From Actinomycetes bacterium (GTDB lineage: Bacteria > Actinomycetota > Thermoleophilia > RBG-16-64-13), in the NCBI GenBank assembly GCA_021372435.1, contig JAJFUK010000059.1:1-39656 (forward strand): a DNA stretch of 39,656 nucleotides, in the 5' to 3' direction. Shown one piece after another: positions 25,942 through 39,553 of this stretch (the first letter of the stretch is position 1; each line of letters starts with the position of its first letter). The notes beneath the pieces are model-generated. The model saw nothing but the letters and a program-made list of their open reading frames with translations. It had not been told where the DNA came from and searched no databases. A program made the position numbers and the translations under genes.

Positions 25942-27240
25942 ATGAATGCCGGTAGAGCGCCCGGACGAAGCAGCGCGCCTGGTCCGGCGCCCGCGACCCC
26001 GGGCACGGCAGCCACCGCGGCCACCGCAGTCGCTACCCAGACCCGCGCCGATCTCCTCGCGACTTCGCTCATGCTCATGTTCGTCATGTCGGCGATCACG
26101 CTCTCGCTGATGCCGGTGGTCACCAACCAGCTTCGCACCGAGATAGGCCTCGGCGATGCCCAGATAGGTTTGCTTACCTCGGTGTTCATGGGCTTCTACG
26201 GGGCTTCGGGGATCCTGTCGGGGATAGCCGCCGCCCGCTGGGGCGGGCGGCTCTTCGCGGTGAGCTCGGCCTGCTTCGTCGTCGGGTCACTCGCGTTCGC
26301 GCTGAGCTCGAGCTTCCCCGGGTTCCTCCTCGGGCGGGCCGTCCAGGGGATAGGGGGCGGCATGGTGGTCGCCACCTGCAACCCGGTGCTGGCGCGGTCG
26401 GTGCCGGCAGAGAAGCTGGGCAGAGCATGGGGCATCACCGGCATCGGCTTCGGGTTGGGCAGCATGGTGGCGCTTTTCGCCCTGCCGCCCATCCAGAGCG
26501 CCGGCGGCTACCGAGCCGCGTGCCTCACCACCGCCGGTCTGGGTCTTGCCATCGGGGTGGCCGTCCTCTGCCAACGGCCCGTCCGGGCCCTGCCGCGCCC
26601 CGGCGACATGGCCACCAGCATGCGCGGCCTGGCAGGCGCTTTCGTGGCGGTCGTGAGGAACCGGAGAGTACTGATTCTGGGTCTCTGCAACACAGCCGGA
26701 CTGGCCATGGGGGTAGCCGCCGTCGCCTGGTCCCCCAGCTTCCTACAGGACATCTACGGGACGCCCGAGGCGACCTCTATGTACCTGATAGCGGCCCTGG
26801 GAGCGGCCCAGATGATCGGCAACCCTCTGGGGATCTTCGTGGCGGCGCGTTGGGGTCTCTTCCGGACGCTGGTGTTCGGGGTGATCGCCACCACGGTCAC
26901 GACCGTGCTCATCGGAGTGTTGCCGGGCGTCGCGCCCATCGTGGCGGTGATCATCCTGGCACAGGCGTTCAACATGTTCTACTTCCCGGTCATGCTCTCC
27001 TACATACCCAAGGTGGTGGGCAACCCCGGGCACGTGGGACCGGCCACCGGCATGAACAGCCTGCTGGGGTTCGCGGGCTCACTGTTCGCGCCCTGGCTGT
27101 TCGGTCTTATCCTCGACGCGGGCCGGCAATCGGCCGGTGCCTACACGGCCGGCTTTGTCATGTTGGGCGCTTTCGGCGTGGTGACACTCATCTCGCTCGC
27201 CTTCTTCAAGCCGGGGCGACAGGCGGTCGCGGACCGCTGA
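25942..27240 (+). CDS. MFS transporter
   Basis: The 432-residue protein has about twelve membrane segments after an Ala/Pro/Thr-rich cytosolic N-terminus (to about residue 33). LTSVFMGFYGASGILSGIAAARWGG holds the family loop 2-3 region, and GRAVQGIGGGMVVATCNPVLA is segment 4 to 5. Later helices include TLVFGVIATTVTTVLIGVL and SLLGFAGSLFAPWLFGLIL. The start follows the TetR stop by 7 bases with no clear Shine-Dalgarno, so translation may depend on coupling. It is probably a drug or metabolite exporter or an organic-acid carrier; the direction cannot be read from sequence. Confidence 0.88.
   Translation: MNAGRAPGRSSAPGPAPATPGTAATAATAVATQTRADLLATSLMLMFVMSAITLSLMPVVTNQLRTEIGLGDAQIGLLTSVFMGFYGASGILSGIAAARWGGRLFAVSSACFVVGSLAFALSSSFPGFLLGRAVQGIGGGMVVATCNPVLARSVPAEKLGRAWGITGIGFGLGSMVALFALPPIQSAGGYRAACLTTAGLGLAIGVAVLCQRPVRALPRPGDMATSMRGLAGAFVAVVRNRRVLILGLCNTAGLAMGVAAVAWSPSFLQDIYGTPEATSMYLIAALGAAQMIGNPLGIFVAARWGLFRTLVFGVIATTVTTVLIGVLPGVAPIVAVIILAQAFNMFYFPVMLSYIPKVVGNPGHVGPATGMNSLLGFAGSLFAPWLFGLILDAGRQSAGAYTAGFVMLGAFGVVTLISLAFFKPGRQAVADR
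27223..27237 (+). terminator. Small hairpin at the MFS gene end
   Basis: GCGGTC and GACCGC pair around GCG within the last codons, directly before the TGA. The 6-bp stem makes this only a candidate terminator. Confidence 0.3.
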
Positions 27241-27382
27241 GGGCAGACCGGTCCGGCGGCTTCGATCGAGTGGGCGACCCCGGGCCCGTCCGGCCGGCCG
27301 GAACGGCGCCAATGCCCGTCCAAGGTCCGATGTGTGCGCAGCGCACCCAACGCCACAATAGCGCCGTAGACGGACGAGGTGT

Positions 27383-27418
27383 CATAATGTGGTCACCTAA
27401 CGCACCACTTATCATAAA
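27383..27418 (+). promoter_or_regulatory. Inverted repeat upstream of the toxin-antitoxin pair
   Basis: GTGGT (27389-27393) and ACCAC (27404-27408) flank 10 bases, with outer ATAAT and TTAT extending the symmetry imperfectly. It lies just before the antitoxin ribosome site, AAAGGAGG. Antitoxins of the Phd type normally bind such sites to autoregulate. Confidence 0.45.
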
Positions 27419-27428
27419 GGAGGCCAGC

Positions 27429-27689
27429 GTGCCTCGCATCGGTCTACGCCACTTCAAGACGCACGCGTCCGAGGTTCTTCGAGACGTAGGAGAGAACAAG
27501 ACCAGGTACGTCATTACCAGCAGAAATAAGCCCCTGGGCATCATCGTCCCCTATTCTTCCCGGGAAGAGACGGACCCCGGGAGCAAAGAAGAGGCGTGTG
27601 AAGCATTCTTCGCTGCCGGGGAGAACGTGAGAGAGGCGTGGGAGAGCCCCCTCACTGCGGTGGAGATCCTGCACGAGATCAGACGGTAG
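27429..27689 (+). CDS. Phd/YefM-type antitoxin
   Basis: The 86-residue protein starts at GTG, set by AAAGGAGG five bases upstream. The N-terminal core RIGLRHFKTHASEVLRDVG and YVITSRNKPLGIIVPY has the Phd/YefM DNA-binding fold. The acidic C-terminal half (EEACEAFFAAGENVREAWES) should wrap the toxin. The PIN-domain gene follows after 6 bases. No Phd/Doc-type toxin is present, so this is a hybrid Phd-PIN arrangement of the VapBC kind. Confidence 0.88.
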   Translation: MPRIGLRHFKTHASEVLRDVGENKTRYVITSRNKPLGIIVPYSSREETDPGSKEEACEAFFAAGENVREAWESPLTAVEILHEIRR

Positions 27690-27695
27690 ACGGTC

Positions 27696-28130
27696 ATGCT
27701 CGACCGGGTTACGCTCGACGCAAGCGTCGTCGTGAGTGCTTTCAGCCCCAACGAAGAGGCCGCAAAGGACAGCCGTCATTTACTCGAGCTGCTCTTGCGT
27801 GACCGGGTTGTGATCGTCGTGCCCACTCTGATACGCCCCGAGATCGTCGCCGCGATCCGGAGGGCGACCGGTGACCCGGGCAAGGCGAAGGTTTTCGAGG
27901 AGTCATTCTCTAGACTGCCCGGCGTGGTTTTCCAAGAACTGGACGACCGAATCGCCGACGCAGCCGTCGAAATCGTCGCGGGAGCAGGACTCAGGGGGGC
28001 CGATGCCGTGTATGCAGCGACCGCACGCCGTTTCGAAGCCGCACTGGTCACTCTCGATGAGGAACAACGGACACGACTCCCGACCGGCATCCCGGCCCTC
28101 TATCCGGCAGAGGCCATCGCCCTGCTGTAG
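27696..28130 (+). CDS. PIN-domain toxin (VapC-like ribonuclease)
   Basis: The 144-residue PIN domain carries the acidic metal-binding set: D8 (TLDASVVVSAF), E49 (PTLIRPEIVAAI), D102 (GADAVYAATA) and D120 (LVTLDEEQ). VapC proteins cut tRNA or rRNA; the target here is unknown. It is translated with the upstream antitoxin. Base composition does not stand out from the neighbours, but such pairs are often mobile. Confidence 0.9.
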   Translation: MLDRVTLDASVVVSAFSPNEEAAKDSRHLLELLLRDRVVIVVPTLIRPEIVAAIRRATGDPGKAKVFEESFSRLPGVVFQELDDRIADAAVEIVAGAGLRGADAVYAATARRFEAALVTLDEEQRTRLPTGIPALYPAEAIALL

Positions 28131-28924: not shown

Positions 28925-28954
28925 TTGAATCCTTAAGGCCATAGATGCTATCGT
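28925..28954 (+). promoter_or_regulatory. Possible promoter of the liv operon
   Basis: TTGAAT (28925-28930) and TATCGT (28949-28954) are 18 bases apart and end about 30 bases before the livG start. The -10 box is only a partial match. Confidence 0.45.
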
Positions 28955-28985
28955 GAGCCGAGACAACGTATCCCGGGGTGGGGTG

Positions 28986-29759
28986 ATGGCGCTACTTGAG
29001 GTCCGTGGATTGACGAAGATATTCGGGGGGTTGACCGCCGTCGGCGACCTCAGCTTCGACGTGAACGAGGGAGAGATCGTCGGCATCATCGGTCCCAACG
29101 GCGCCGGCAAGAGCACCGTCTTCAACATGGTCTGCGGCACCCTCAAGCCCACCGCCGGCACCATAAAGTTCCGGGGTAAGAACATCACCGGCCTCGCCCC
29201 CCACAAGATAGCCAAGAAGGGGATAGCGCGGGTCTTCCAGGGAAACGTCCTCTTCCCCGCCTCCACGGTGTTGGACAACGTGGTCATGGGTGCGCATCTG
29301 CACACCCAACTCGATCTGTTCGGCTTTCTCTTCGGCGGCCGCCGCGCGCGCCGCAAGGAGGAGGCCGTCCGGGCCCGGGCCATGGAGATACTGGAACTGG
29401 TGGGTCTGGCCGACGATGCCGACACACTCGCGTCGGACCTCCCTCACGGGAATCAACGCCACCTATGCCTGGCGGTAGCTCTGGCCGTGGAGCCCAAGCT
29501 GCTGCTGCTGGACGAGCCCGTCACCGGGATGAACGCCGAAGAAGTCTCGGAGATGCTGGACCTGATCAGGATGCTGCGGGAGAAGACAGGGCTGACCCTT
29601 ATCGTGATAGAGCACAACATGAAGGCCGTCATGGGTCTGTGCGACCGCATCGTGGTCATCAGCTACGGCGTCAAGATAGCCGAAGGTCTGCCCCAGGAGA
29701 TAGCGAACAACCCGGCCGTGATCGAAGCTTATCTCGGAGTCGAAGACGATGCTGCTTGA
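28986..29759 (+). CDS. livG: Branched-chain amino acid/amide ABC transporter ATP-binding protein LivG
   Basis: The 257-residue ATPase of a hydrophobic-amino-acid uptake (HAAT) system has Walker A GPNGAGKST (near residue 38), signature-like LPHGNQRHLCLAVALA and Walker B LLLLDEPVTGMNAEE. LivG proteins normally carry such a non-canonical signature. ATG 28986, not the ATG 33 bases upstream, aligns with family starts. It overlaps livF by 11 bases. With livF, livH and livM it forms a full import core. Confidence 0.93.
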   Translation: MALLEVRGLTKIFGGLTAVGDLSFDVNEGEIVGIIGPNGAGKSTVFNMVCGTLKPTAGTIKFRGKNITGLAPHKIAKKGIARVFQGNVLFPASTVLDNVVMGAHLHTQLDLFGFLFGGRRARRKEEAVRARAMEILELVGLADDADTLASDLPHGNQRHLCLAVALAVEPKLLLLDEPVTGMNAEEVSEMLDLIRMLREKTGLTLIVIEHNMKAVMGLCDRIVVISYGVKIAEGLPQEIANNPAVIEAYLGVEDDAA

Positions 29760-30456
29760 GATCAAGGATCTGCGGGTCCGCTACGGCGGCGCAGAAGTCC
29801 TGAAGGGCATCTCCGTCGAAGTCGAGGAGGGGTCTGTCGTCACCCTTCTCGGTGGCAATGGGGCGGGCAAGTCGACCACCCTGCGCGCGATCACGGGGTT
29901 GGCGCCCATCTACGGGGGTGAGATCTGGTTCGACGGCAGGCGGATAGATGGACAGCCCCCGCAGAAGATCGTCGAGCTGGGGATCCGCCACGTGCTGGAG
30001 GGCAGGGCCCTCTTCCCCTACATGTCGGTGCTCGAGAACCTCAGGGTGGGGGCCTACCTGCAGAAGGACAAGCGCAGGACGGCCGAGACCCTCAAAGACA
30101 TCTTCCTCCATTTCCCCCGACTGAAAGAGAGGCAGGATCAGCAGGCGAGGACCCTGAGCGGGGGCGAACAGCAGATGCTGACCATCGCCCGGGCCCTGAT
30201 GGGCAATCCGAGGCTCCTCTTACTGGACGAGCCGTCCCTGGGGCTGGCACCGATGATGATCCGCGAGATCGCCAAGATAGTGAAGGGCATCCACGAGCAG
30301 GGGGTGACGGTGCTCCTGGTCGAACAGAACACCAGATTGGCCCTCAGAGTGGCCGATATGTGCTACCTGCTGGAGACGGGCAGCGTCGCGGCTTGTGGAG
30401 CGACCCGCGAACTGATGGAGAGCGACCAGGTGAGAAAGGCCTATCTCGGACTATGA
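29749..30456 (+). CDS. livF: Branched-chain amino acid/amide ABC transporter ATP-binding protein LivF
   Basis: The second ATPase has 235 residues, the usual length. Walker A is GGNGAGKST (near residue 36), signature TLSGGEQQMLTIARAL and Walker B LLLLDEPSLGLAP. The ATG lies inside the end of livG, so translation is coupled. It pairs with LivG at the cytoplasmic face of the LivH/LivM permease. Confidence 0.95.
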   Translation: MLLEIKDLRVRYGGAEVLKGISVEVEEGSVVTLLGGNGAGKSTTLRAITGLAPIYGGEIWFDGRRIDGQPPQKIVELGIRHVLEGRALFPYMSVLENLRVGAYLQKDKRRTAETLKDIFLHFPRLKERQDQQARTLSGGEQQMLTIARALMGNPRLLLLDEPSLGLAPMMIREIAKIVKGIHEQGVTVLLVEQNTRLALRVADMCYLLETGSVAACGATRELMESDQVRKAYLGL

Positions 30457-30484
30457 GAGTCATCAGCGATCACGAGGCCGGTCG

Positions 30485-31351
30485 ATGGACATAACCGCGC
30501 AGGATGCAGTACAGAGCATAATCAACGGGCTGTGCATGGGCGGTACCTATGTCCTGATAGGGCTGGGCCTGACCCTCATCCTCGGCATCATGAACATCCT
30601 GCAGTTCGCCCACGGCGAGGTCTACATGGTCGGGGCGTTCATCGTTTACCTCCTGTGCGTGCTGAACGGTGTCAACCTGTATCTCGCAGTCGTGATAAGC
30701 ATGATAGCCACAGCCGTCCTGGGGCTCATCCTGGAAAGGGTGTTCCTCCGGCCCCTGAAGGGCGTGTTTCTCTCCTACGTCTGCGTGACCACCGGACTCA
30801 GCCTCATCCTACAGACGGCTGTCATGCTCGTGTTCAGCAAAGGTGTCAAGCAACTTCCGTCCCTGTGGGGAGGCTCGTTCTCCGTCGGCGGCATGTTCAT
30901 CTCCAGAGAGAGGGTCGTCGCGATCGTCATAGCCCTGCTGCTCACCTTGGCCTTGTACAGCTTCCTCAAATGGACCAGGTACGGACTGGCGATGACGGCA
31001 TCCGCTCAACACCGTGAAGGCGCCTTGATGCAGGGGATAAACCCCAATCTTATGTCGGCCTTGGTCGTGGCGATCGGTAGCGGCTTGGCGGCGGTCGGCG
31101 GCGCGCTGGGCGGCAGCATTTTCAATCTGGATCCCTACATGGGCGGCCTGGCCTTCATGAAGGGGGTCACTCTCATCGTCATCGGGGGTCTGGGCAGCAT
31201 ACCGGGCGCGGTCGTGGGCGGGCTCTTCCTCGGCGTGGCCGAGAGCCTGCTTGCCCTTTTCTTCGGATCACAGATGGGGATAATCCTCCCGCTGGTCCTC
31301 GTCATCATCTTCCTCCTCTTCCGACCGAAAGGGCTGTTCGGCCATGACTGA
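30485..31351 (+). CDS. livH: Branched-chain amino acid/amide ABC transporter permease LivH
   Basis: This 288-residue integral membrane permease starts at ATG 30485, 28 bases after livF. The N-terminal NGLCMGGTYVLIGLGLTLIL and MNILQFAHGEVYMVGAFIV are highly typical, as are GVAESLLALFFGSQMGIILP and the end FLLFRPKGLFG. It carries eight or so transmembrane helices and overlaps livM by eight bases. Substrate range (branched-chain amino acids, amides, urea or aromatic compounds) depends on the binding protein. Confidence 0.94.
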   Translation: MDITAQDAVQSIINGLCMGGTYVLIGLGLTLILGIMNILQFAHGEVYMVGAFIVYLLCVLNGVNLYLAVVISMIATAVLGLILERVFLRPLKGVFLSYVCVTTGLSLILQTAVMLVFSKGVKQLPSLWGGSFSVGGMFISRERVVAIVIALLLTLALYSFLKWTRYGLAMTASAQHREGALMQGINPNLMSALVVAIGSGLAAVGGALGGSIFNLDPYMGGLAFMKGVTLIVIGGLGSIPGAVVGGLFLGVAESLLALFFGSQMGIILPLVLVIIFLLFRPKGLFGHD

Positions 31352-32384
31352 GCGCGCACAGCGAATCACGAAGACCTCGGCCTTCGTGGTCATCCTCCTG
31401 CTGGTCCTTGCGCTTCCCTGGATCCTGCGCGGTACGGTCAAGGCCGCTCCCTACTGGACCCACGTCTTCGTCTTGATCGGCGTCTTCACTCTGATGACGT
31501 CCAGCATGCGGGCCATCTTCCGTACCGGCGAGGTGAGCCTGGGTACCGCCGGCTTCATGCTCGTCGGGGGTTACGCCGCCGCCATACTGTCCATAAGGCT
31601 GGGACTCTCGCCTTGGCTGACCATGCTTCTTGGCGGCCTGCTCTCTGCGGCGATCGGGGGGCTCCTGGCCTATCCCTTCTTCCGGGTCAAAGGCGTGTAT
31701 TTTTCCATCACCACACTCCTGCTCGGGTTTGTCTTCCTCTACCTAGCGGGTTGGATGGATTGGCTCACCGGTGGCTGGCAGGGACTACAGTTCTTCAATA
31801 TCACGCCTGAGCTCACCATCGGGTCGCTCAACGTCGCCTTCACAACCAAGACCAACATCGAGTACTACTACCTGGTGGTCGTAGTGGTGGGGATATGCCT
31901 GTTCGTCCTCTATCGGATGGAGCGCTCCCGGGTAGGCCTTGTCTGGAAATCGATAAGCGAGGCCGATCACCTGGCTCAGTCGGTAGGAGTCAATGTGATG
32001 GGCCACAAGATCTTCGTCTTTACCGTTGCCTGTTTCTTCACCGGTCTGGCCGGCGGCCTTTATGCCTTCCACGTACACGCCCTCTCCCCCACCAGCACTC
32101 CCGCTAATGTGTTCCATTTCTTTACGTCCGTCTATTGCCTGATGTATATGGTGGTCGGCGGGGTCAACAGCTTCTACGGTCCCCTTGTCGGCACTACGTT
32201 GTTCATGCTTTTGCGGGAGTGGGGCCGGTCGGTATCGGAGTACTGGCCTTTGGTCATGGGGTCGATACTCATACTCATAGTCTTCTTCATGCCTAAGGGG
32301 CTCGTTGGGCTGCCTGGGTATTCCCGCATATGGTATGAGAAACTGCGCGGGTTCTTGCGCAGAAGAGCCTTATCGTCGGAGTGA
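31344..32384 (+). CDS. livM: Branched-chain amino acid/amide ABC transporter permease LivM
   Basis: This is the second permease, 346 residues. RTGEVSLGTAGFMLVGGYAAAIL and MERSRVGLVWKSISEADHLAQSVGVNV are LivM signatures, and the C-terminus ILIVFFMPKGLVGLPG is usual. ATG 31344 overlaps livH (ATGACTGA). A 7-bp hairpin (32383-32405) begins at its stop codon and precedes the binding-protein gene. Confidence 0.94.
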   Translation: MTERAQRITKTSAFVVILLLVLALPWILRGTVKAAPYWTHVFVLIGVFTLMTSSMRAIFRTGEVSLGTAGFMLVGGYAAAILSIRLGLSPWLTMLLGGLLSAAIGGLLAYPFFRVKGVYFSITTLLLGFVFLYLAGWMDWLTGGWQGLQFFNITPELTIGSLNVAFTTKTNIEYYYLVVVVVGICLFVLYRMERSRVGLVWKSISEADHLAQSVGVNVMGHKIFVFTVACFFTGLAGGLYAFHVHALSPTSTPANVFHFFTSVYCLMYMVVGGVNSFYGPLVGTTLFMLLREWGRSVSEYWPLVMGSILILIVFFMPKGLVGLPGYSRIWYEKLRGFLRRRALSSE

Positions 32385-32405
32385 CGCTGCTCGTCTATCA
32401 GCGTC
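32383..32405 (+). promoter_or_regulatory. Intercistronic hairpin between livM and the binding-protein gene
   Basis: GACGCTG (32383-32389) pairs with CAGCGTC (32399-32405) around a 9-base loop at the livM stop. Such structures often partly terminate or stabilise transcripts so that binding proteins are made in excess. TATACT at 32453-32458 could add an internal -10 box, though no -35 is clear. Confidence 0.4.
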
Positions 32406-32504
32406 GTGCGCTATGAAGATAAGGAGGTGGGTAACGGTACAAGATGAGGCCCTATACTCTCTTAGTGTGAACGCTCTTGATAATCGAAGGAGGGGAGCGA
32501 ACAA

Positions 32505-33863
32505 ATGAAAAAAAGGTCATTAGCCATCTTGCTGGCTCTGATGTTGGTGCTAGGTCTTGGATCGGTGTGGATGGTCGCCTGCGGAGAAGACGAAGAGACG
32601 ACGACCACAGCAGCACCGACAACCACAGCAGGACCGACGACGACAGGCGGCGGCCCTCAGACCACGGCAGCTCCTACCACCGCGACCACCGCGGCGGGAG
32701 AGACCAAGGAGCTCGTGATCGGCGGCATCGCCTTCCTCACCGGCCCCGGCGCCGCAGGAGGAATGGCCGCCAAGACCGGATGGGAACTGGCCGCGGCTAA
32801 AATCAACGATGCCGGCGGTCTGAAGATCGGCAACGATACCTACATGGTGAAGCTCCTCGTAGAAGACGACGCGATGAGCGTCGACCAGGCGTCCACCGCG
32901 GCGCAGAAGCTCATCCAGCAGGATGGGGCCACGTTCATCATGGGTCCGCTGGTAGACGCTTTCAAGAACGTGATCTACCCCATCTGCGCCCAGAACGGCG
33001 TGATGCTGGCCGATGTCGATACCAAGAACGCGTCCGCGGCCATCAAGTATGAGGGCAACACCGATGTGTCCCCCGACCGGCCGCTTCATGCCCGGTTCCA
33101 TTGGGCCAACGACGAGATGATGCCCTATCTCTTCGACTATCTCCAGGAGAACTATCCGGATGCCAAGAAGATAGCCGTTTGTGGCGTCACCGAAGCGTGT
33201 ACGGTGGCCTTGTACGACTGGCTCGGGACCACGCTCCCGGCGAGAGGCCTCGAGCGCGTGGGTGCTCTGGAGCAGATGGCCCCGGACACCGCCGACTACG
33301 TCCCTCCGGTGACGCGTCTGCTGTCCGCCAAGCCTGATGCCATTTTGGTGGCGGTTTCGACACCGCAGACCTGGGGCCAGGTCACCAAGGCGGCCCGCGA
33401 CCTGGGATTCAACGGTCCCGTCATGTGCTCCACGCACATGGGGGTCGAGTTCGCCTTGATGATCGCCGAAGGCGCCAAGGACGTGTTCGGAGCCGGCATA
33501 GCCATGGCCGATCTTGCCGGCCTACCCCCGGCGATGCAGGAAGCCCATGAGGCGTATGTAGCCAAGGGATACCCCGCCCAGGACGAGATAGCCGACGTCT
33601 ACCTGGTGGGCTACAACGGTCTGTGGGTACTGCTGCAGGCCATAGAGAAGGCCCAGAGCGTCGACCCGCAGGAAGTCTACGACTTCTACCAGACCCTGAC
33701 CAACCCCGGGGATCTCCAGACCCTCTGGGGTGACGGCGCCTATGTCGGCGGGCTGCAGTCCACGGGTGTCAACGCGGTGCTGTGCGAACCCTACTGGATC
33801 AACGGGGTCGGAGCGGACGGCGTCCAGAAGAACCTGAAGCAGGTCTTCATAGACGTGCCGTGA
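32505..33863 (+). CDS. Liv-type substrate-binding lipoprotein of the liv operon
   Basis: The 452-residue extracytoplasmic binding protein has a Sec signal peptide and lipobox ending at C26 (WMVAC). A Thr-rich linker (TTTTAAPTTTAGPTTTGGG) extends to about residue 65, and the type I periplasmic-binding fold starts at KELVIGGIAFLTGPGA. VEDDAMSVDQASTAAQKLIQ and FIMGPLVDAFKNVIYPI are typical ligand-site regions. AAGGAGG precedes the ATG. It is the operon's own receptor; the ligand could be an amino acid, amide, urea or aromatic acid and is not predictable from sequence alone. Confidence 0.92.
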   Translation: MKKRSLAILLALMLVLGLGSVWMVACGEDEETTTTAAPTTTAGPTTTGGGPQTTAAPTTATTAAGETKELVIGGIAFLTGPGAAGGMAAKTGWELAAAKINDAGGLKIGNDTYMVKLLVEDDAMSVDQASTAAQKLIQQDGATFIMGPLVDAFKNVIYPICAQNGVMLADVDTKNASAAIKYEGNTDVSPDRPLHARFHWANDEMMPYLFDYLQENYPDAKKIAVCGVTEACTVALYDWLGTTLPARGLERVGALEQMAPDTADYVPPVTRLLSAKPDAILVAVSTPQTWGQVTKAARDLGFNGPVMCSTHMGVEFALMIAEGAKDVFGAGIAMADLAGLPPAMQEAHEAYVAKGYPAQDEIADVYLVGYNGLWVLLQAIEKAQSVDPQEVYDFYQTLTNPGDLQTLWGDGAYVGGLQSTGVNAVLCEPYWINGVGADGVQKNLKQVFIDVP

Positions 33864-33979: not shown

Positions 33980-34594
33980 TCAAGGGGAACCGGCCGCGTC
34001 CTTGAGCATCAGCTCGAGCGAGTAGTTGGAATGGCCTTCGTCTATGTACTCGGTCAGTCCCATGAGCGTGCTCAGGTTCTCGGCCCACAGGATCGTGTAG
34101 AACTGCCAGGTGAGCCTCTTTGCGTCGATGTCGTCCCGGATGACTCCTTCGGCCTGCCCCTGCTCAATGATCTTCAGCATCTTCGCGAAGGCCTTGGCTT
34201 GAGTCTCGGTGACCGCTTCGCGGAGTCCCACTTGGGGTCCGGCCACAACGAACTCAATCCACGGCGACGTGAAGCGGTCGCGCTCGGTCTTCATCACCTC
34301 GGAATGGCGGCGCGCGATATCTCGAAGCATCTCGTCTGCGCTCATCTGCGGAGCGGCGTCGATGAGGGCGGCCATTCTCGTGAAGATGCCGTCAAGAGCC
34401 GCCCGCAGCATCTCTTTGCGGCTCGGATAGTAGACATACAGGGTACCTTCGGACACCTTGGCCGCCGCGGCGATACGGGCCACGGTCGCTCCTGATACCC
34501 CGTGTTCGGCGACGACCTGTGTAACGGCCTCGATGATCTGCCGGCTTCTCTCCTCCGGAGGAAGGCGCCTACGCCTACTTACCCTCGCCGACAC
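33980..34594 (-). CDS. TetR-family regulator, divergent from the binding-protein/hydrolase operon
   Basis: The 204-residue regulator starts at GTG 34594, five bases after AAAGGAG; earlier in-frame starts lack a ribosome site. The HTH is RSRQIIEAVTQVVAEHGVSGATVARIAAAAKVSEGTLYVYYPSRKEMLRAAL, which matches TetR closely. The C-terminal helical domain would bind an effector. It is transcribed away from the Tat-lipoprotein gene. The operator at 34723-34740 lies at that gene's expected transcription start, so this protein probably represses the operon. The effector may be the transported compound (inference). Confidence 0.92.
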   Translation of the reverse strand: MSARVSRRRRLPPEERSRQIIEAVTQVVAEHGVSGATVARIAAAAKVSEGTLYVYYPSRKEMLRAALDGIFTRMAALIDAAPQMSADEMLRDIARRHSEVMKTERDRFTSPWIEFVVAGPQVGLREAVTETQAKAFAKMLKIIEQGQAEGVIRDDIDAKRLTWQFYTILWAENLSTLMGLTEYIDEGHSNYSLELMLKDAAGSP

Positions 34595-34687
34595 GCACAC
34601 TCCTTTCACACAGACGGTTTCACCGAGACGGAGCCCCGGGCAAGACACAAGCTGCACAACAGCTTACCTGAACGCGTTGACGGAGTG

Positions 34688-34716
34688 TTGACAGAGGTGC
34701 GCGGCCGGCGTACTGT
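34688..34716 (+). promoter_or_regulatory. Promoter of the Tat-lipoprotein/CocE-like operon
   Basis: A perfect -35 box TTGACA (34688-34693) and a weak -10 TACTGT (34711-34716) are 17 bases apart. Transcription would start near 34723, at the left edge of the palindromic operator. Confidence 0.7.
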
Positions 34717-34722
34717 GATCTT

Positions 34723-34740
34723 AATGAGCACCCGCTCATT
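34723..34740. promoter_or_regulatory. Perfect TetR-type operator palindrome
   Basis: AATGAGCACCCGCTCATT has two perfect 7-bp arms separated by ACCC. Centred about 9 bases after the predicted transcription start, it would block transcription when bound. The adjacent divergent TetR gene is the natural candidate binder. Confidence 0.85.
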
Positions 34741-34846
34741 GTCTCTCTACGCCACGTCTGGGGATGCGGCCAAGTGCTTCGTACAAGAGAGACGGGTTGA
34801 TCTTCAAGCGGAACGCACTGTCAGAGATGCTACTCGAGGGAGGGAG

Positions 34847-36355
34847 ATGATGCATCAAGACGACGAACCCAATAAGAGTCATGCTGCGGGAGAAGACAGT
34901 GCCGGCGGCGACGATCCCGGGCGGGTGTTGAGCCGGCGGCAATTCTTGAAGATCGCGGGAATGGCAGGAGCCACCGTAGGCATGGCCGGTGGGTTGGGCG
35001 GACTGCTCGCCGGCTGCGCCGAAGAGGCTGAGACGACCACGACCGCTGGCCCTACCAGCACCGCGGCCGCGACGACGACCACCGCGGGCGCGACCACGAC
35101 TATCGCCCCCGTAACGACGACCACCGCGGCGGCCGGACCCCAAAAGGGCACGCCCATCAAGCTGGGCGTAGTGGCCCCCAAGACGGGAGGTTTGGCCTTC
35201 TTTTCCATCGCGAGCGACTGGTGGCTCGACCTGGCCAAGAACGCCCTCAAAGACGGCATCATCGCGGGGGACAAGAAGCTGCGGAACATCGAATTCCTGA
35301 TCGAAGACAGCCAGTCGGATACGGCGCGCGCAGCGCAGGTCGCGGCGGGCCTCATCAGCGACCGCAAGGTCAATCTGATCATGAGTTTCGGCAGTCCGGA
35401 CACGGTCGTCCCCGTTTCCGATCAGGCCGAGGCGCTCGGCTGCCCCAGCATCGGTACGAACTGCCCCTGGCAGTCCTTCACCGAGGGGCGGGGCATGCCG
35501 AAGGAAGGGTTCAAGTGGACCTACCTCTTCGGTCTTGGCTCGGAACAGACCATGATCAACTTCACCGAGATGTTCGACCAGGTGCCGAACAACAAGGTCG
35601 TGGGCATGCTATTCGCCAACGATATCGATGCCCAAGGTTGGATGGCCGAGAACGCCGCTCCCAAGATCTTGGGTGACAAAGGCTACAAGCTGGTGGTGCC
35701 CTCGTTCTATCCGCCTGGAGCGGAGGACTTCACTCAGCAGATCTCGATGTTCAAGAAGGAAGGATGCGACATCGTCTGCGGGACGAACAACCCGCCCGAA
35801 TTCACGAACTTCTGGAAACAGTGCTACCAGCAGGGTTTCCGTCCCAAGCTGGTCAGTTCCGGCAAATGCCTGCTGTTCCCCGAGACCCTTCAGGCCTTCG
35901 GTGAGATCGGCTACGGGTTGATCGGCGAGGTGGCGTTCCATCCCGTCAGTTGGCCTTTCGTCGACGCCATAACCGGCATGGACTGTGCCGAGCTGGCGGC
36001 CGACTACGAGACAAAGACCGGCAACCAATGGACCCAGGTCATCGGAACGTATACCAATGCTCAATGGGCCGTTGATGTCTTCAAACGGGCCACGGATCCC
36101 GAGGATCCCGAATCCGTGGTCCAGGCCATCAGAACCACCAAGTTGGAAACGGTCCACGGCCAGATCGACTACACGGCGCCGGTGGACACCAGCGTCGAGT
36201 CGCTGCGGCCTTCGCCCAACATCTGCAAGCAGTGCTACGCCGGCGGCCAGTGGGTACGGGGCGACAAGTACCCCTTCGACTTGGTGGTCTGCAGCGTAGC
36301 CCAGGCGCCCGGCTGCAAAGTGCAGGCCAAGACCCAGCCGATGCAGTACACCTAG
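34847..36355 (+). CDS. Tat-exported Liv-type substrate-binding lipoprotein
   Basis: The 502-residue protein carries a twin-arginine signal, SRRQFLK at residues 29-35, followed by a hydrophobic stretch and lipobox LAGC ending at C57. It is therefore probably exported folded and lipid-anchored. A Thr-rich linker (TTTTAGATTTIAPVTTTTAA) follows. The type I binding fold begins PIKLGVVAPKTGGLAFF, with LIEDSQSDTARAAQVAAGLI and FGSPDTVVPVSDQAEALGCP in the ligand-site area. GAGGGAGGG lies before a tandem ATGATG; the second ATG is equally possible. The CocE-like gene follows after 16 bases. No permease is encoded here, so it may feed LivHMGF. Confidence 0.92.
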   Translation: MMHQDDEPNKSHAAGEDSAGGDDPGRVLSRRQFLKIAGMAGATVGMAGGLGGLLAGCAEEAETTTTAGPTSTAAATTTTAGATTTIAPVTTTTAAAGPQKGTPIKLGVVAPKTGGLAFFSIASDWWLDLAKNALKDGIIAGDKKLRNIEFLIEDSQSDTARAAQVAAGLISDRKVNLIMSFGSPDTVVPVSDQAEALGCPSIGTNCPWQSFTEGRGMPKEGFKWTYLFGLGSEQTMINFTEMFDQVPNNKVVGMLFANDIDAQGWMAENAAPKILGDKGYKLVVPSFYPPGAEDFTQQISMFKKEGCDIVCGTNNPPEFTNFWKQCYQQGFRPKLVSSGKCLLFPETLQAFGEIGYGLIGEVAFHPVSWPFVDAITGMDCAELAADYETKTGNQWTQVIGTYTNAQWAVDVFKRATDPEDPESVVQAIRTTKLETVHGQIDYTAPVDTSVESLRPSPNICKQCYAGGQWVRGDKYPFDLVVCSVAQAPGCKVQAKTQPMQYT

Positions 36356-36371: not shown

Positions 36372-38063
36372 ATGAGGAATGAAGCGGACCGGCCCGCATC
36401 GCAGCCCGAATATGGGGTGCAGGTCGACAAGGACGTCTTCGTCGCATCACGGGACGGGGTACGCCTGGCAGTGGACGTCTACCGGCCCGATGCTCCCGGC
36501 ACGTTCCCGGCCTTGCTGGCCATATCGCCCTACGGCAAAAGCGTCCAGGTCAACGACTCTCCTCCTCAACCCTTCGGCAAGTCGGTGTTCGAGGCTTCGA
36601 TCGAAGCAGGCGACCCCTACTTTTATGCCAAGCGCGGGTACGCCTACGCCATCGCCGACCTGCGCGGCACCGGCGATTCGGAGGGCGAATATGAGGGTCT
36701 GCTCTCGAAATATGAGGGACGCGACGGGGCGGATATCGTAGAGTGGCTGGCAAAGCAGCCTTGGTGCACCGGCGACGTGGGCGGGGCAGGTATCTGCTAC
36801 TTCTCGTCGATGCAGCTCCACATAGCCGCGGAGCAGCCACCCCACCTCAAATGCATCGCCCCCTGGGAGATCTTCGCCGACGACCTGTACAACCACGGTG
36901 TGTACGAGGGCGGTGTCCTCAACATCTTTCTGTACGGACTGTACACCGGGACGTATCCGGCCCGCTGCGGCTGGGCCATCAAGAACACGGCCTCGGCGAT
37001 GATCAAGAACACGCCCAAAGACGAGCTGGAGAAGTTGAGGGCCGAGGCTCTGAAGAATCCCGACCTGAGGCAGTATCCCTACCTAGACCACCTGCTGAGG
37101 TACCCGGGCAAGAACCCGCTGCTCTTCGACTTCATGCTGAATCCGCTCGACGGTCCCTTCTACCGGGAACGTTCGGTCTCAGAGCGCCTAGACAGGATCA
37201 AGATCCCGACCTACGTGGGCGGGCCGTTTTTCAGCTTCTTCACGGAGCCGCAGGTCAACGTGTTCAACCGGCTGCAGGCGCCGAAGAAGATGTTCCTTTA
37301 CACGGACATGGGCTACCGTCCCTGGAGGGCGGATCATGATGAGATCCTGCGCTGGTACGACTACTGGCTCAAGGGGATCGACACCGGGATCATGGACGAA
37401 CCGCCTATCCGGTACCGCATCGCCGGCGCAGAGAAGTGGTCGACCGCCGAGGAATGGCCCTTGGAGACCACGCGGTGGACCAAGTTCTACCTCAACAGTC
37501 TGCAGAGACTCATGCCTCAGCCTGAGCTGTACAATGACGAGCCCGACGCCTTCGTCCAGCAGCCGCTGTACGTCACCGAAGAGCGCGCCCGCGTGACCTA
37601 CGTGACCCCGCCTCTCTCCGAAGACCTGCAGATCACCGGACCGCCCCGCATCACCTTCTATGCGTCGATAGACCGGCCGGACACCAATTTCCGCATCTCG
37701 GTAAGGGATGCTGATTCAGACGCCGTCTATCCCCTCGCCCAGGGCTGGCTGAAGGCCTCACACCGGGCGCTTGACGAGGCCAACGCCACACCGTGGGAGG
37801 TCGCCCACGACCACACTAAGGCCGTACCGGTGAAACCCGGCGAGATCAACGAATACCAGGCACAGCTGCGTCCCATGTCCTACATGTTCCGGGCGGGTCA
37901 ACGCATCAAGCTGGAGATCTCGAGCATCGATATCCCCACCGACATCGAGACGTACGACGTGATGTGGCACGTGTGCAGCAGTGCGACGACTCTGCATAAG
38001 GTCTATCGCGACGCGGAACACCAATCGTTCCTTGAACTGCCGGTGATCCCGCGGGGCGCCTGA
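36372..38063 (+). CDS. CocE/NonD-like alpha/beta hydrolase with a Cys at the nucleophile position
   Basis: This 563-residue protein belongs to the X-Pro dipeptidyl peptidase / cocaine-esterase-like hydrolase family: RDGVRLAVDVYRPD opens it, DLRGTGDSEGEY follows, and the C-terminal beta domain ends with the typical MSYMFRAGQRIKLEISS. The nucleophile elbow, normally GxSxxG, reads G-I-C-Y-F-S with C142 (codon at 36795-36797), a Ser-to-Cys change. The usual triad Asp region (GGWxDxF) reads GGPFFSF near residue 284, and the usual GPWxH histidine block is not seen; the nearest His is 322. Activity may be altered or lost. No signal peptide is evident, so it acts in the cytoplasm, perhaps on what the co-transcribed lipoprotein imports. 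AAGGAGGAAG precedes the ATG. Confidence 0.85.
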   Translation: MRNEADRPASQPEYGVQVDKDVFVASRDGVRLAVDVYRPDAPGTFPALLAISPYGKSVQVNDSPPQPFGKSVFEASIEAGDPYFYAKRGYAYAIADLRGTGDSEGEYEGLLSKYEGRDGADIVEWLAKQPWCTGDVGGAGICYFSSMQLHIAAEQPPHLKCIAPWEIFADDLYNHGVYEGGVLNIFLYGLYTGTYPARCGWAIKNTASAMIKNTPKDELEKLRAEALKNPDLRQYPYLDHLLRYPGKNPLLFDFMLNPLDGPFYRERSVSERLDRIKIPTYVGGPFFSFFTEPQVNVFNRLQAPKKMFLYTDMGYRPWRADHDEILRWYDYWLKGIDTGIMDEPPIRYRIAGAEKWSTAEEWPLETTRWTKFYLNSLQRLMPQPELYNDEPDAFVQQPLYVTEERARVTYVTPPLSEDLQITGPPRITFYASIDRPDTNFRISVRDADSDAVYPLAQGWLKASHRALDEANATPWEVAHDHTKAVPVKPGEINEYQAQLRPMSYMFRAGQRIKLEISSIDIPTDIETYDVMWHVCSSATTLHKVYRDAEHQSFLELPVIPRGA

Positions 38064-38257: not shown

Positions 38258-39553
38258 TCACTCGCCCAGAAGCACCTGTTCGTACGTGTGGACCGGCCTC
38301 CAGGAGATGTTGTCGCCCACCTGCTCCGTCGTCACGATGAAGAAGTCGCGGGTCCCGATGTAGGCGTCCTTGTAGGGCGACATGGTGACCTTGCCGGCGG
38401 GGGTGTCGATGCTGATCGTCGACATGGCCTCGATGACCTTGGCCGGGGTGGTATCGCCGCCGGTCAGCTTGAGCGCTTCCTTGTAGAGCATCACTGCCAC
38501 CCATCCCGTGTAACTCTGCGTGCTAGGAGGCTCGTCCGGGTACAGCTTCTGGTAGGCCGCCGTGTACTCGGCGTTCAGGGGGTTCTCAAGTAGAGGCGTG
38601 TAGATGTCACAGCCGACTATGCCCAGGCCCGCCTCACCCAGATCGGCCAACTGCTCCTCTACAAAGTTGTTGGCCATCGGGACGACCAGCGGCGCAGTGA
38701 GGCCGTAGTCGTGGCACTGCTTGACGAACGGGACGGAGCCATTGCCGATGATCCAGAAGTACGTACAATCGGCCGGCTTCAACGTCGACAGATAGGCGCT
38801 GAAGTCCACGGTGTCCATAGGAACGTAGTTCACGCTCACGACCTGGCCGCCGCCCTCAGCGAAGCCTCTCTCAAACCCCGACTGGAGGTTGTACGCCGCG
38901 GTGTCCTCGTAGTTGATACAGTTGGCCGTCTTGTAACCGAGCTCTTGAGAGACATACCTGCCGAAGTAGTAACCCCAGGAGCCGTAAAGACCGGCCGGGA
39001 TGAACGCGAGCTTGTTGGCGGTCTGGAGGTTGTCGCTCGGTTGGCCCATGAGTGAGCACTGTGGGATCCCCCCGGCCTTTGCCAAATAGTCGGTGACGGC
39101 TTGAGTGGCCGGTGAGAAAAGGGGCCCGATCATGTAGTTGATGCCGTCACTCTCCACCAGCTGTCTGGCTTTGTCGACCGCGACGACAGGATCGGAACCG
39201 TTGTCCGCCTTGAGGTATTCCACCGGCCGCCCGGCCATCTGGTTCTCGAGCATGGCCAGACCCGTCAAGATCCCTTTCTCGCACTGTTCGGCGTCGAATG
39301 CCATGAAACCGGTGAAGCCCTCGTCGAACGCCATCTTGATCGGTCCACCCGCAGCGGCCGTGGTCTCAGTGCCACCGGCCGTGGTCTCAGTGCCACCGGC
39401 CGTGGTGACGGCCCCGCCAGCCGTGGTCGTAGCGGGCTCTTCCGTACCGCATGCGACCGCCAACAGACAGACCCCCAGGGCCGTCAAGAGCATCACCATC
39501 AGTAGTCGCCTACCCATTCCCCTGCTCCTAGTGTTCGATCCCCTACCGTCCAT
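38258..39553 (-). CDS. Liv-type substrate-binding lipoprotein (orphan in this window)
   Basis: The 431-residue protein has a Sec lipoprotein signal (GRRLLMVMLLTALGVCLLAVAC, in two halves around the hydrophobic core) with lipid-attachment C35. A short TETTAGGTETTA repeat linker follows. The type I binding fold begins IKMAFDEGFTGFMAFDAEQ, with KADNGSDPVVAVDKARQLVE and NYMIGPLFSPATQAVTDYLA in the ligand region. GGGAGG lies about 6 bases before ATG 39553. It is on the opposite strand from the other two binding proteins. Its own operon partners, if any, are not visible: it converges with the hydrolase gene and its upstream side runs off the window. Confidence 0.9.
   Translation of the reverse strand: MDGRGSNTRSRGMGRRLLMVMLLTALGVCLLAVACGTEEPATTTAGGAVTTAGGTETTAGGTETTAAAGGPIKMAFDEGFTGFMAFDAEQCEKGILTGLAMLENQMAGRPVEYLKADNGSDPVVAVDKARQLVESDGINYMIGPLFSPATQAVTDYLAKAGGIPQCSLMGQPSDNLQTANKLAFIPAGLYGSWGYYFGRYVSQELGYKTANCINYEDTAAYNLQSGFERGFAEGGGQVVSVNYVPMDTVDFSAYLSTLKPADCTYFWIIGNGSVPFVKQCHDYGLTAPLVVPMANNFVEEQLADLGEAGLGIVGCDIYTPLLENPLNAEYTAAYQKLYPDEPPSTQSYTGWVAVMLYKEALKLTGGDTTPAKVIEAMSTISIDTPAGKVTMSPYKDAYIGTRDFFIVTTEQVGDNISWRPVHTYEQVLLGE

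Follow-up and report, generated by a model that had tools for sequence, protein, structure and literature searches.

A subfamily of CocE/NonD proteins with an invariant cysteine in place of the catalytic serine, kept across three bacterial phyla

Results

A CocE/NonD protein outside the serine-hydrolase definition

The window (the whole stretch of 39,656 nucleotides analysed here) encodes a protein which belongs by sequence to the CocE/NonD family and yet stands outside the definition of a serine hydrolase: the position of the catalytic serine is occupied by a cysteine, Cys142, which is shared by a clade of 18 proteins from three phyla. The gene lies at 36372..38063 on the + strand, is directly preceded by a ribosome-binding site (AAGGAGG) and codes for 563 amino acids. 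The protein scores 283.7 bits against TIGR00976 (CocE/NonD), for a cut-off of 66.3, while in Pfam the Peptidase_S15 domain (residues 28-309) scores 150 bits (cut-off 23) and the PepX_C domain (residues 339-554) 115 bits (cut-off 22.5). No signal peptide was seen on inspection by eye, and the best reading is that the protein is cytoplasmic.

Positions 36786-36803, GCAGGTATCTGCTACTTC, are translated as A-G-I-C-Y-F (residues 139-144). The first-pass annotation had proposed that G-I-C-Y-F stands here for the GxSxxG of the family, with Cys142 at the place of the CocE serine, that GGPFFSF replaces GGWxDxF and that GPWxH is missing; all of this is borne out. The triad of CocE consists of Ser117, Asp259 and His287, and Tyr44 takes part in its oxyanion hole. 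In a profile alignment of 50 homologues to cocaine esterase (1ju3), Cys142 (codon TGC, 36795..36797, + strand) faces Ser117, Phe287 (37230..37232, + strand) faces Asp259, and Gly314 or Met313 faces His287. Hence each of the three residues by which MEROPS S15/CocE defines its serine hydrolases is replaced: the Ser of GxSxxG by Cys142, the Asp following strand 7 (GWxD) by Phe287, both invariant in the clade, and the His of the strand-8 loop (GPWxH) by a segment, [TSK][DN]MGxRPW, which contains no His in any Cys protein. The oxyanion tyrosine is kept, as Tyr54 (36531..36533, + strand) is aligned with Tyr44; it is invariant in the clade, and so is Tyr143.

The view that the fold is intact is upheld by an AlphaFold2 model built from a 50-row alignment (mean pLDDT 90.1, pTM 0.91), in which strands and helices follow each other in the CocE order. 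The best structural match of the model is SACOL2612 (3ib3_A; Z 37.0, 485 residues aligned, 2.4 A), and CocE itself (1ju3) is matched with a Z of 33.6 (471 residues aligned, 2.4 A). From end to end, the predicted fold follows the CocE-type structures that have been solved.

The replacement is shared by a single branch

Bacterial and archaeal genomes were scanned, and the close relatives (56-78% identity) came from Actinomycetota, Dehalococcoidia/Chloroflexi, Clostridiales Family XIII, Lachnospiraceae and Eubacterium. All 17 of them have the elbow G-I-C-Y-F, the cysteine being encoded by TGC or TGT, while the more distant homologues that come next, with at most 50% identity, all have Ser. At position 142, the 125 aligned homologue rows comprise 104 Ser, 16 Cys (all from this clade), 1 Ala and 4 gaps. 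We computed a maximum-likelihood tree with column 142 left out: it groups the Cys proteins on a single branch (SH-aLRT 100), and the Cys/Ser label requires one change only. From this tree, Ser was replaced by Cys once, and the cysteine was kept thereafter across three phyla. As the clostridial Cys proteins are placed beside the actinobacterial ones, the tree also suggests horizontal transfer. The hosts, judging from record titles, lineages and general knowledge, are presumably anaerobes of sediments, digesters and guts. Broad samples of the phylum of the window and of those of loci L050 and L039 yielded no further Cys-type copies, which means that the subfamily is rare.

A sequencing or assembly error at codon 36795-36797, which the first-pass annotation had named as a possible refutation, could be imagined in an assembly fragmented into 197 contigs; since 17 other contigs have the same residue, through both TGC and TGT, we regard it as negligibly probable. 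Selenocysteine was considered as well, a Chloroflexota relative (L133) having been flagged with an internal TGA, and was rejected, as the aligned region of that relative has Ser and no stop. Two observations on individual genomes can be added. Actinobacteria bacterium RBG_16_64_13, of the genus of the window, has a Cys-type orthologue (L048:1469-3178, the same gene as L013) which is apparently frameshifted around residue 447, since tblastn returns it as two pieces in different frames. The 1.7 Mb clostridial genome of locus L047 (G1065; L137) contains 14 candidate CocE-family regions, an unusual expansion.

About 200 of the 563 positions are invariant across the phyla and many of these are in the cap, as can be expected of a specific pocket under selection. 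The features specific to the Cys clade are Cys142, the loss of the strand-8-loop His, the invariant Phe287 and Phe290, the cap residues Trp165, Asp170, His175, Tyr191, Thr192 and His240, and the segment Y-T-G-T-Y-P-A-R. This bears on one further account of the protein, an ordinary CocE-like esterase in which Cys took the place of Ser in a near-neutral manner, was fixed by descent and left the substrate range unchanged. The overall fold is intact, and so are both domains, S15 and PepX_C, as this account would have it. However, the cysteine came together with the loss of the strand-8-loop His and with many clade-specific invariant residues, and the other CocE-family copies examined in Cys-bearing genomes all have Ser. 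We consider this account very improbable.

A candidate acid after strand 6 and a candidate base after strand 8

The first-pass annotation had noted that nearby triad regions differ, too, and asked whether the Asp and His partners are re-supplied. The differences are real, but they are not all of one age. Of 17 sister sequences with Ser, 15 have Asp or Glu at position 166, 13 keep the strand-8-loop His and 16 have His at 322, and W-x-D follows strand 7 in none of them. Since W-x-D is missing in these Ser-type sisters too, its loss predates the cysteine and is no part of the Ser-to-Cys change. In the Cys protein, Glu166 (36867..36869, + strand) follows strand 6, which ends at residue 162 in the model, and is invariant in the clade; the motif P-x-[DE] after strand 6 occurs in 0 of 53 canonical rows, that is rows with both WxD and GPWxH. 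From this pattern of motifs, a move of the acid from strand 7 to strand 6 most likely preceded the Ser-to-Cys change, so that Glu166 may re-supply the triad acid. A column test over all Ser-type homologues, in which an acid at 166 was set against Asp at strand 7, gave no significant anticorrelation (p = 0.22); the contrast shows only at the level of motifs and against the sister branch, a comparison which was defined after seeing the data. There are precedents for such a move: the triad acid of ZenA lactonase (D153/D137) lies after strand 6, as proven by mutation and structure (PMC10913051), with a nucleophile-to-acid spacing of 25 residues as against 24 in the Cys protein, and a superfamily survey describes the migration of the triad acid to strand 6 in many clusters (PMC11878206).

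For the histidine the outcome is less favourable, as the strand-8-loop His is gone from every Cys protein. Strand 8 spans residues 305-310 in the model, and His322 (37335..37337, + strand) falls in the first turn of the following helix (319-334); it is His in 17 of the 18 clade members and Gln in the remaining one (L042). The cap offers two clade-specific invariant histidines, His175 (36894..36896, + strand), at the start of the cap and near the position of CocE Trp151 in sequence, and His240 (37089..37091, + strand). His322 is, as an unproven candidate, the best remaining base.

Proposed mechanism and its alternatives

The first-pass annotation had suggested a thiol hydrolase or acyltransferase, or else a non-catalytic binding protein; with the fold intact and a conserved Cys exactly at the nucleophile position, a thiol enzyme is a reasonable reading. 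We propose that the protein may be a thiol hydrolase, derived by a single descent from a Ser-type CocE/NonD enzyme and using Cys142, Glu166 and probably His322; we put the chances of this proposal at about even. In this scheme an ester, thioester or lactone would be attacked at its carbonyl by Cys142 of the nucleophile elbow; Tyr54, together with the backbone NH of Tyr143, would hold the oxyanion, and hydrolysis of the acyl-thioester would follow. The base would be His322, oriented by Glu166, and the substrate would be taken up by the neighbouring Liv-type transporter. We infer the catalysis itself, the roles of His322 and Glu166 and the uptake by the transporter. A bolder version, which strikes us as somewhat unlikely, is that the whole catalytic apparatus was swapped (Cys for Ser, the acid from strand 7 to strand 6, the base at His322 or at His175 or His240 of the cap) and that the chemistry is new to the family.

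A thiol hydrolase is weakened chiefly by the missing conventional His and by the Gln at 322 in L042, which lend weight to two other readings; that the gene neighbourhood varies outside Actinomycetota also counts against it. In the first of these readings, which is the main rival, the protein is non-catalytic, possibly a sensor, whose pocket binds a hydrolase-type ligand without turnover, Cys142 being structural or a contact with the ligand. The replacement of the CocE Ser, Asp and His positions altogether is in its favour, and so is the loss of triad residues in other branches of CocE/NonD such as the Caulobacteraceae copies (GWFS, GPWA). However, a non-catalytic elbow is expected to drift, whereas all 18 proteins of the three phyla have Cys and none has Ala or Gly; moreover, neither of the oxyanion tyrosines, Tyr54 and Tyr143, varies in the clade, which also retains a possible acid and a possible His. 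On balance we judge it unlikely. The second is a thiol acyltransferase, in which Cys142 would form a thioester and hand it on to CoA, an amine or another acceptor, or else a C-C or C-O lyase with Cys142 as the acid/base group. A Cys nucleophile serves acyl transfer in PHA synthase as well as hydrolysis elsewhere, and C-C lyases of the alpha/beta hydrolase fold have altered triads (PMC11878206). The cap is heavily reworked, with the clade-specific segment mentioned above, and genes for SDR proteins, alcohol dehydrogenase or old yellow enzyme are close by in some loci. Against this, neither an acceptor-binding domain nor a CoA-ligase partner is kept beside the gene, and an enzyme of this second kind seems quite unlikely to us.

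Gene surroundings

A complete Liv/HAAT-type ABC transporter, with two ATPases, two permeases and one substrate-binding protein, is encoded upstream (28953..33863, + strand). It is followed by a TetR-family regulator (33980..34657, - strand) and by a TAT-type lipoprotein which is a Liv/HAAT-type substrate-binding protein (34502..36355, + strand; Pfam Peripla_BP_6 and TAT_signal). The open reading frame of the latter, as listed, exceeds the true gene, and 16 bases separate its end from the Cys gene. In L043, a substrate-binding protein 52% identical to it is encoded near the Cys gene. Orthologues of the TetR regulator (55-66% identity) adjoin the Cys gene divergently in five other actinobacterial loci, while in the window the two are separated by the lipoprotein gene, which makes six of six actinobacterial loci with the regulator adjoining or near. 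The best reading is that in Actinomycetota the Cys protein is regulated by a divergent TetR repressor, and this context of regulator, substrate-binding protein and transporter suggests that a small molecule is imported and used on induction.

Other loci have genes for old yellow enzyme, SDR, alcohol dehydrogenase or a sodium/solute symporter. Outside Actinomycetota we found no conserved neighbour and no more than a scatter of genes for old yellow enzyme, SDR, symporter and ABM proteins. As no partner is kept there, we rejected the idea of reading a function from the gene neighbourhood.

Between 28953 and 39553 the window encodes three Liv/HAAT-type substrate-binding proteins (32505-33863, 34502-36355 and 38258-39553) for one ABC transporter, which suggests several ligands served by one permease. 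Further upstream, the open reading frame 26427-27689 has a match to PhdYeFM-like antitoxins at its C-terminal end and is directly followed by a PIN-domain gene (27696-28130); the two are likely a toxin-antitoxin pair.

Discussion

Ser-to-Cys switches are few among alpha/beta hydrolases and are linked to special chemistry, as in dienelactone hydrolase and PHA synthase. The literature searched contained no published description of a Cys-type CocE/S15 protein, and a classification paper, where it treats active-site variation, names Cys triads for the dienelactone hydrolase and PHA families and not for S15 (PMC11878206). The Cys nucleophile is already known elsewhere in the superfamily; what appears to be new is a conserved Cys subfamily within CocE/S15. 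With a conserved switch of single origin and Ser-type sisters which are fairly close (37-50% identical), the clade would provide a clean test of what changes together with an exchanged nucleophile. In practice, a family model would name all these proteins just CocE/NonD hydrolases, and they would escape serine-directed probes. Were the whole apparatus indeed swapped, a thiol enzyme chemistry new to CocE/S15 would have spread among anaerobe-type bacteria of three phyla.

Among known systems, CocE of Rhodococcus (1ju3; TIGR00976, MEROPS S15) shares with the Cys protein the S15 core, the cap, the PepX_C jelly roll, the position of the elbow and the oxyanion tyrosine, and differs from it at all three triad positions. 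SACOL2612 of Staphylococcus aureus (3iii/3ib3), also of CocE/NonD, resembles the Cys protein in the absence of WxD and in the P-W-E that follows strand 6; in contrast to the Cys protein, its elbow still has Ser, and a His is still found where strand 8 ends (VHGRKEW). On a Caulobacteraceae contig, tandem Ser-type CocE paralogues (L063, L102) keep the Ser with an otherwise eroded triad, the strand-7 Asp (GWFS/GWFA) and the strand-8 His (GPWATGG, GPWAAGG, GPWGAGG) both being absent. ZenA zearalenone lactonases have their triad acid after strand 6, where Glu166 is found in the Cys protein (PMC10913051), but they belong to a different family, with a Ser nucleophile and the canonical His loop. Finally, dienelactone hydrolase, PhaZ depolymerase and PHA synthase have Cys-Asp-His triads, with the Cys nucleophile in the same elbow as in the Cys protein (PMC11878206); they are other families of the superfamily, with the canonical His and without the S15/PepX_C architecture. 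The Cys protein shares with them the Cys of the elbow and no family membership: up to an E value of 0.001, its Pfam and NCBIfam matches include no dienelactone hydrolase or PHA family and consist of S15, PepX_C, CocE/NonD, two weak matches to Xaa-Pro dipeptidyl-peptidase and one weak match to UilS.
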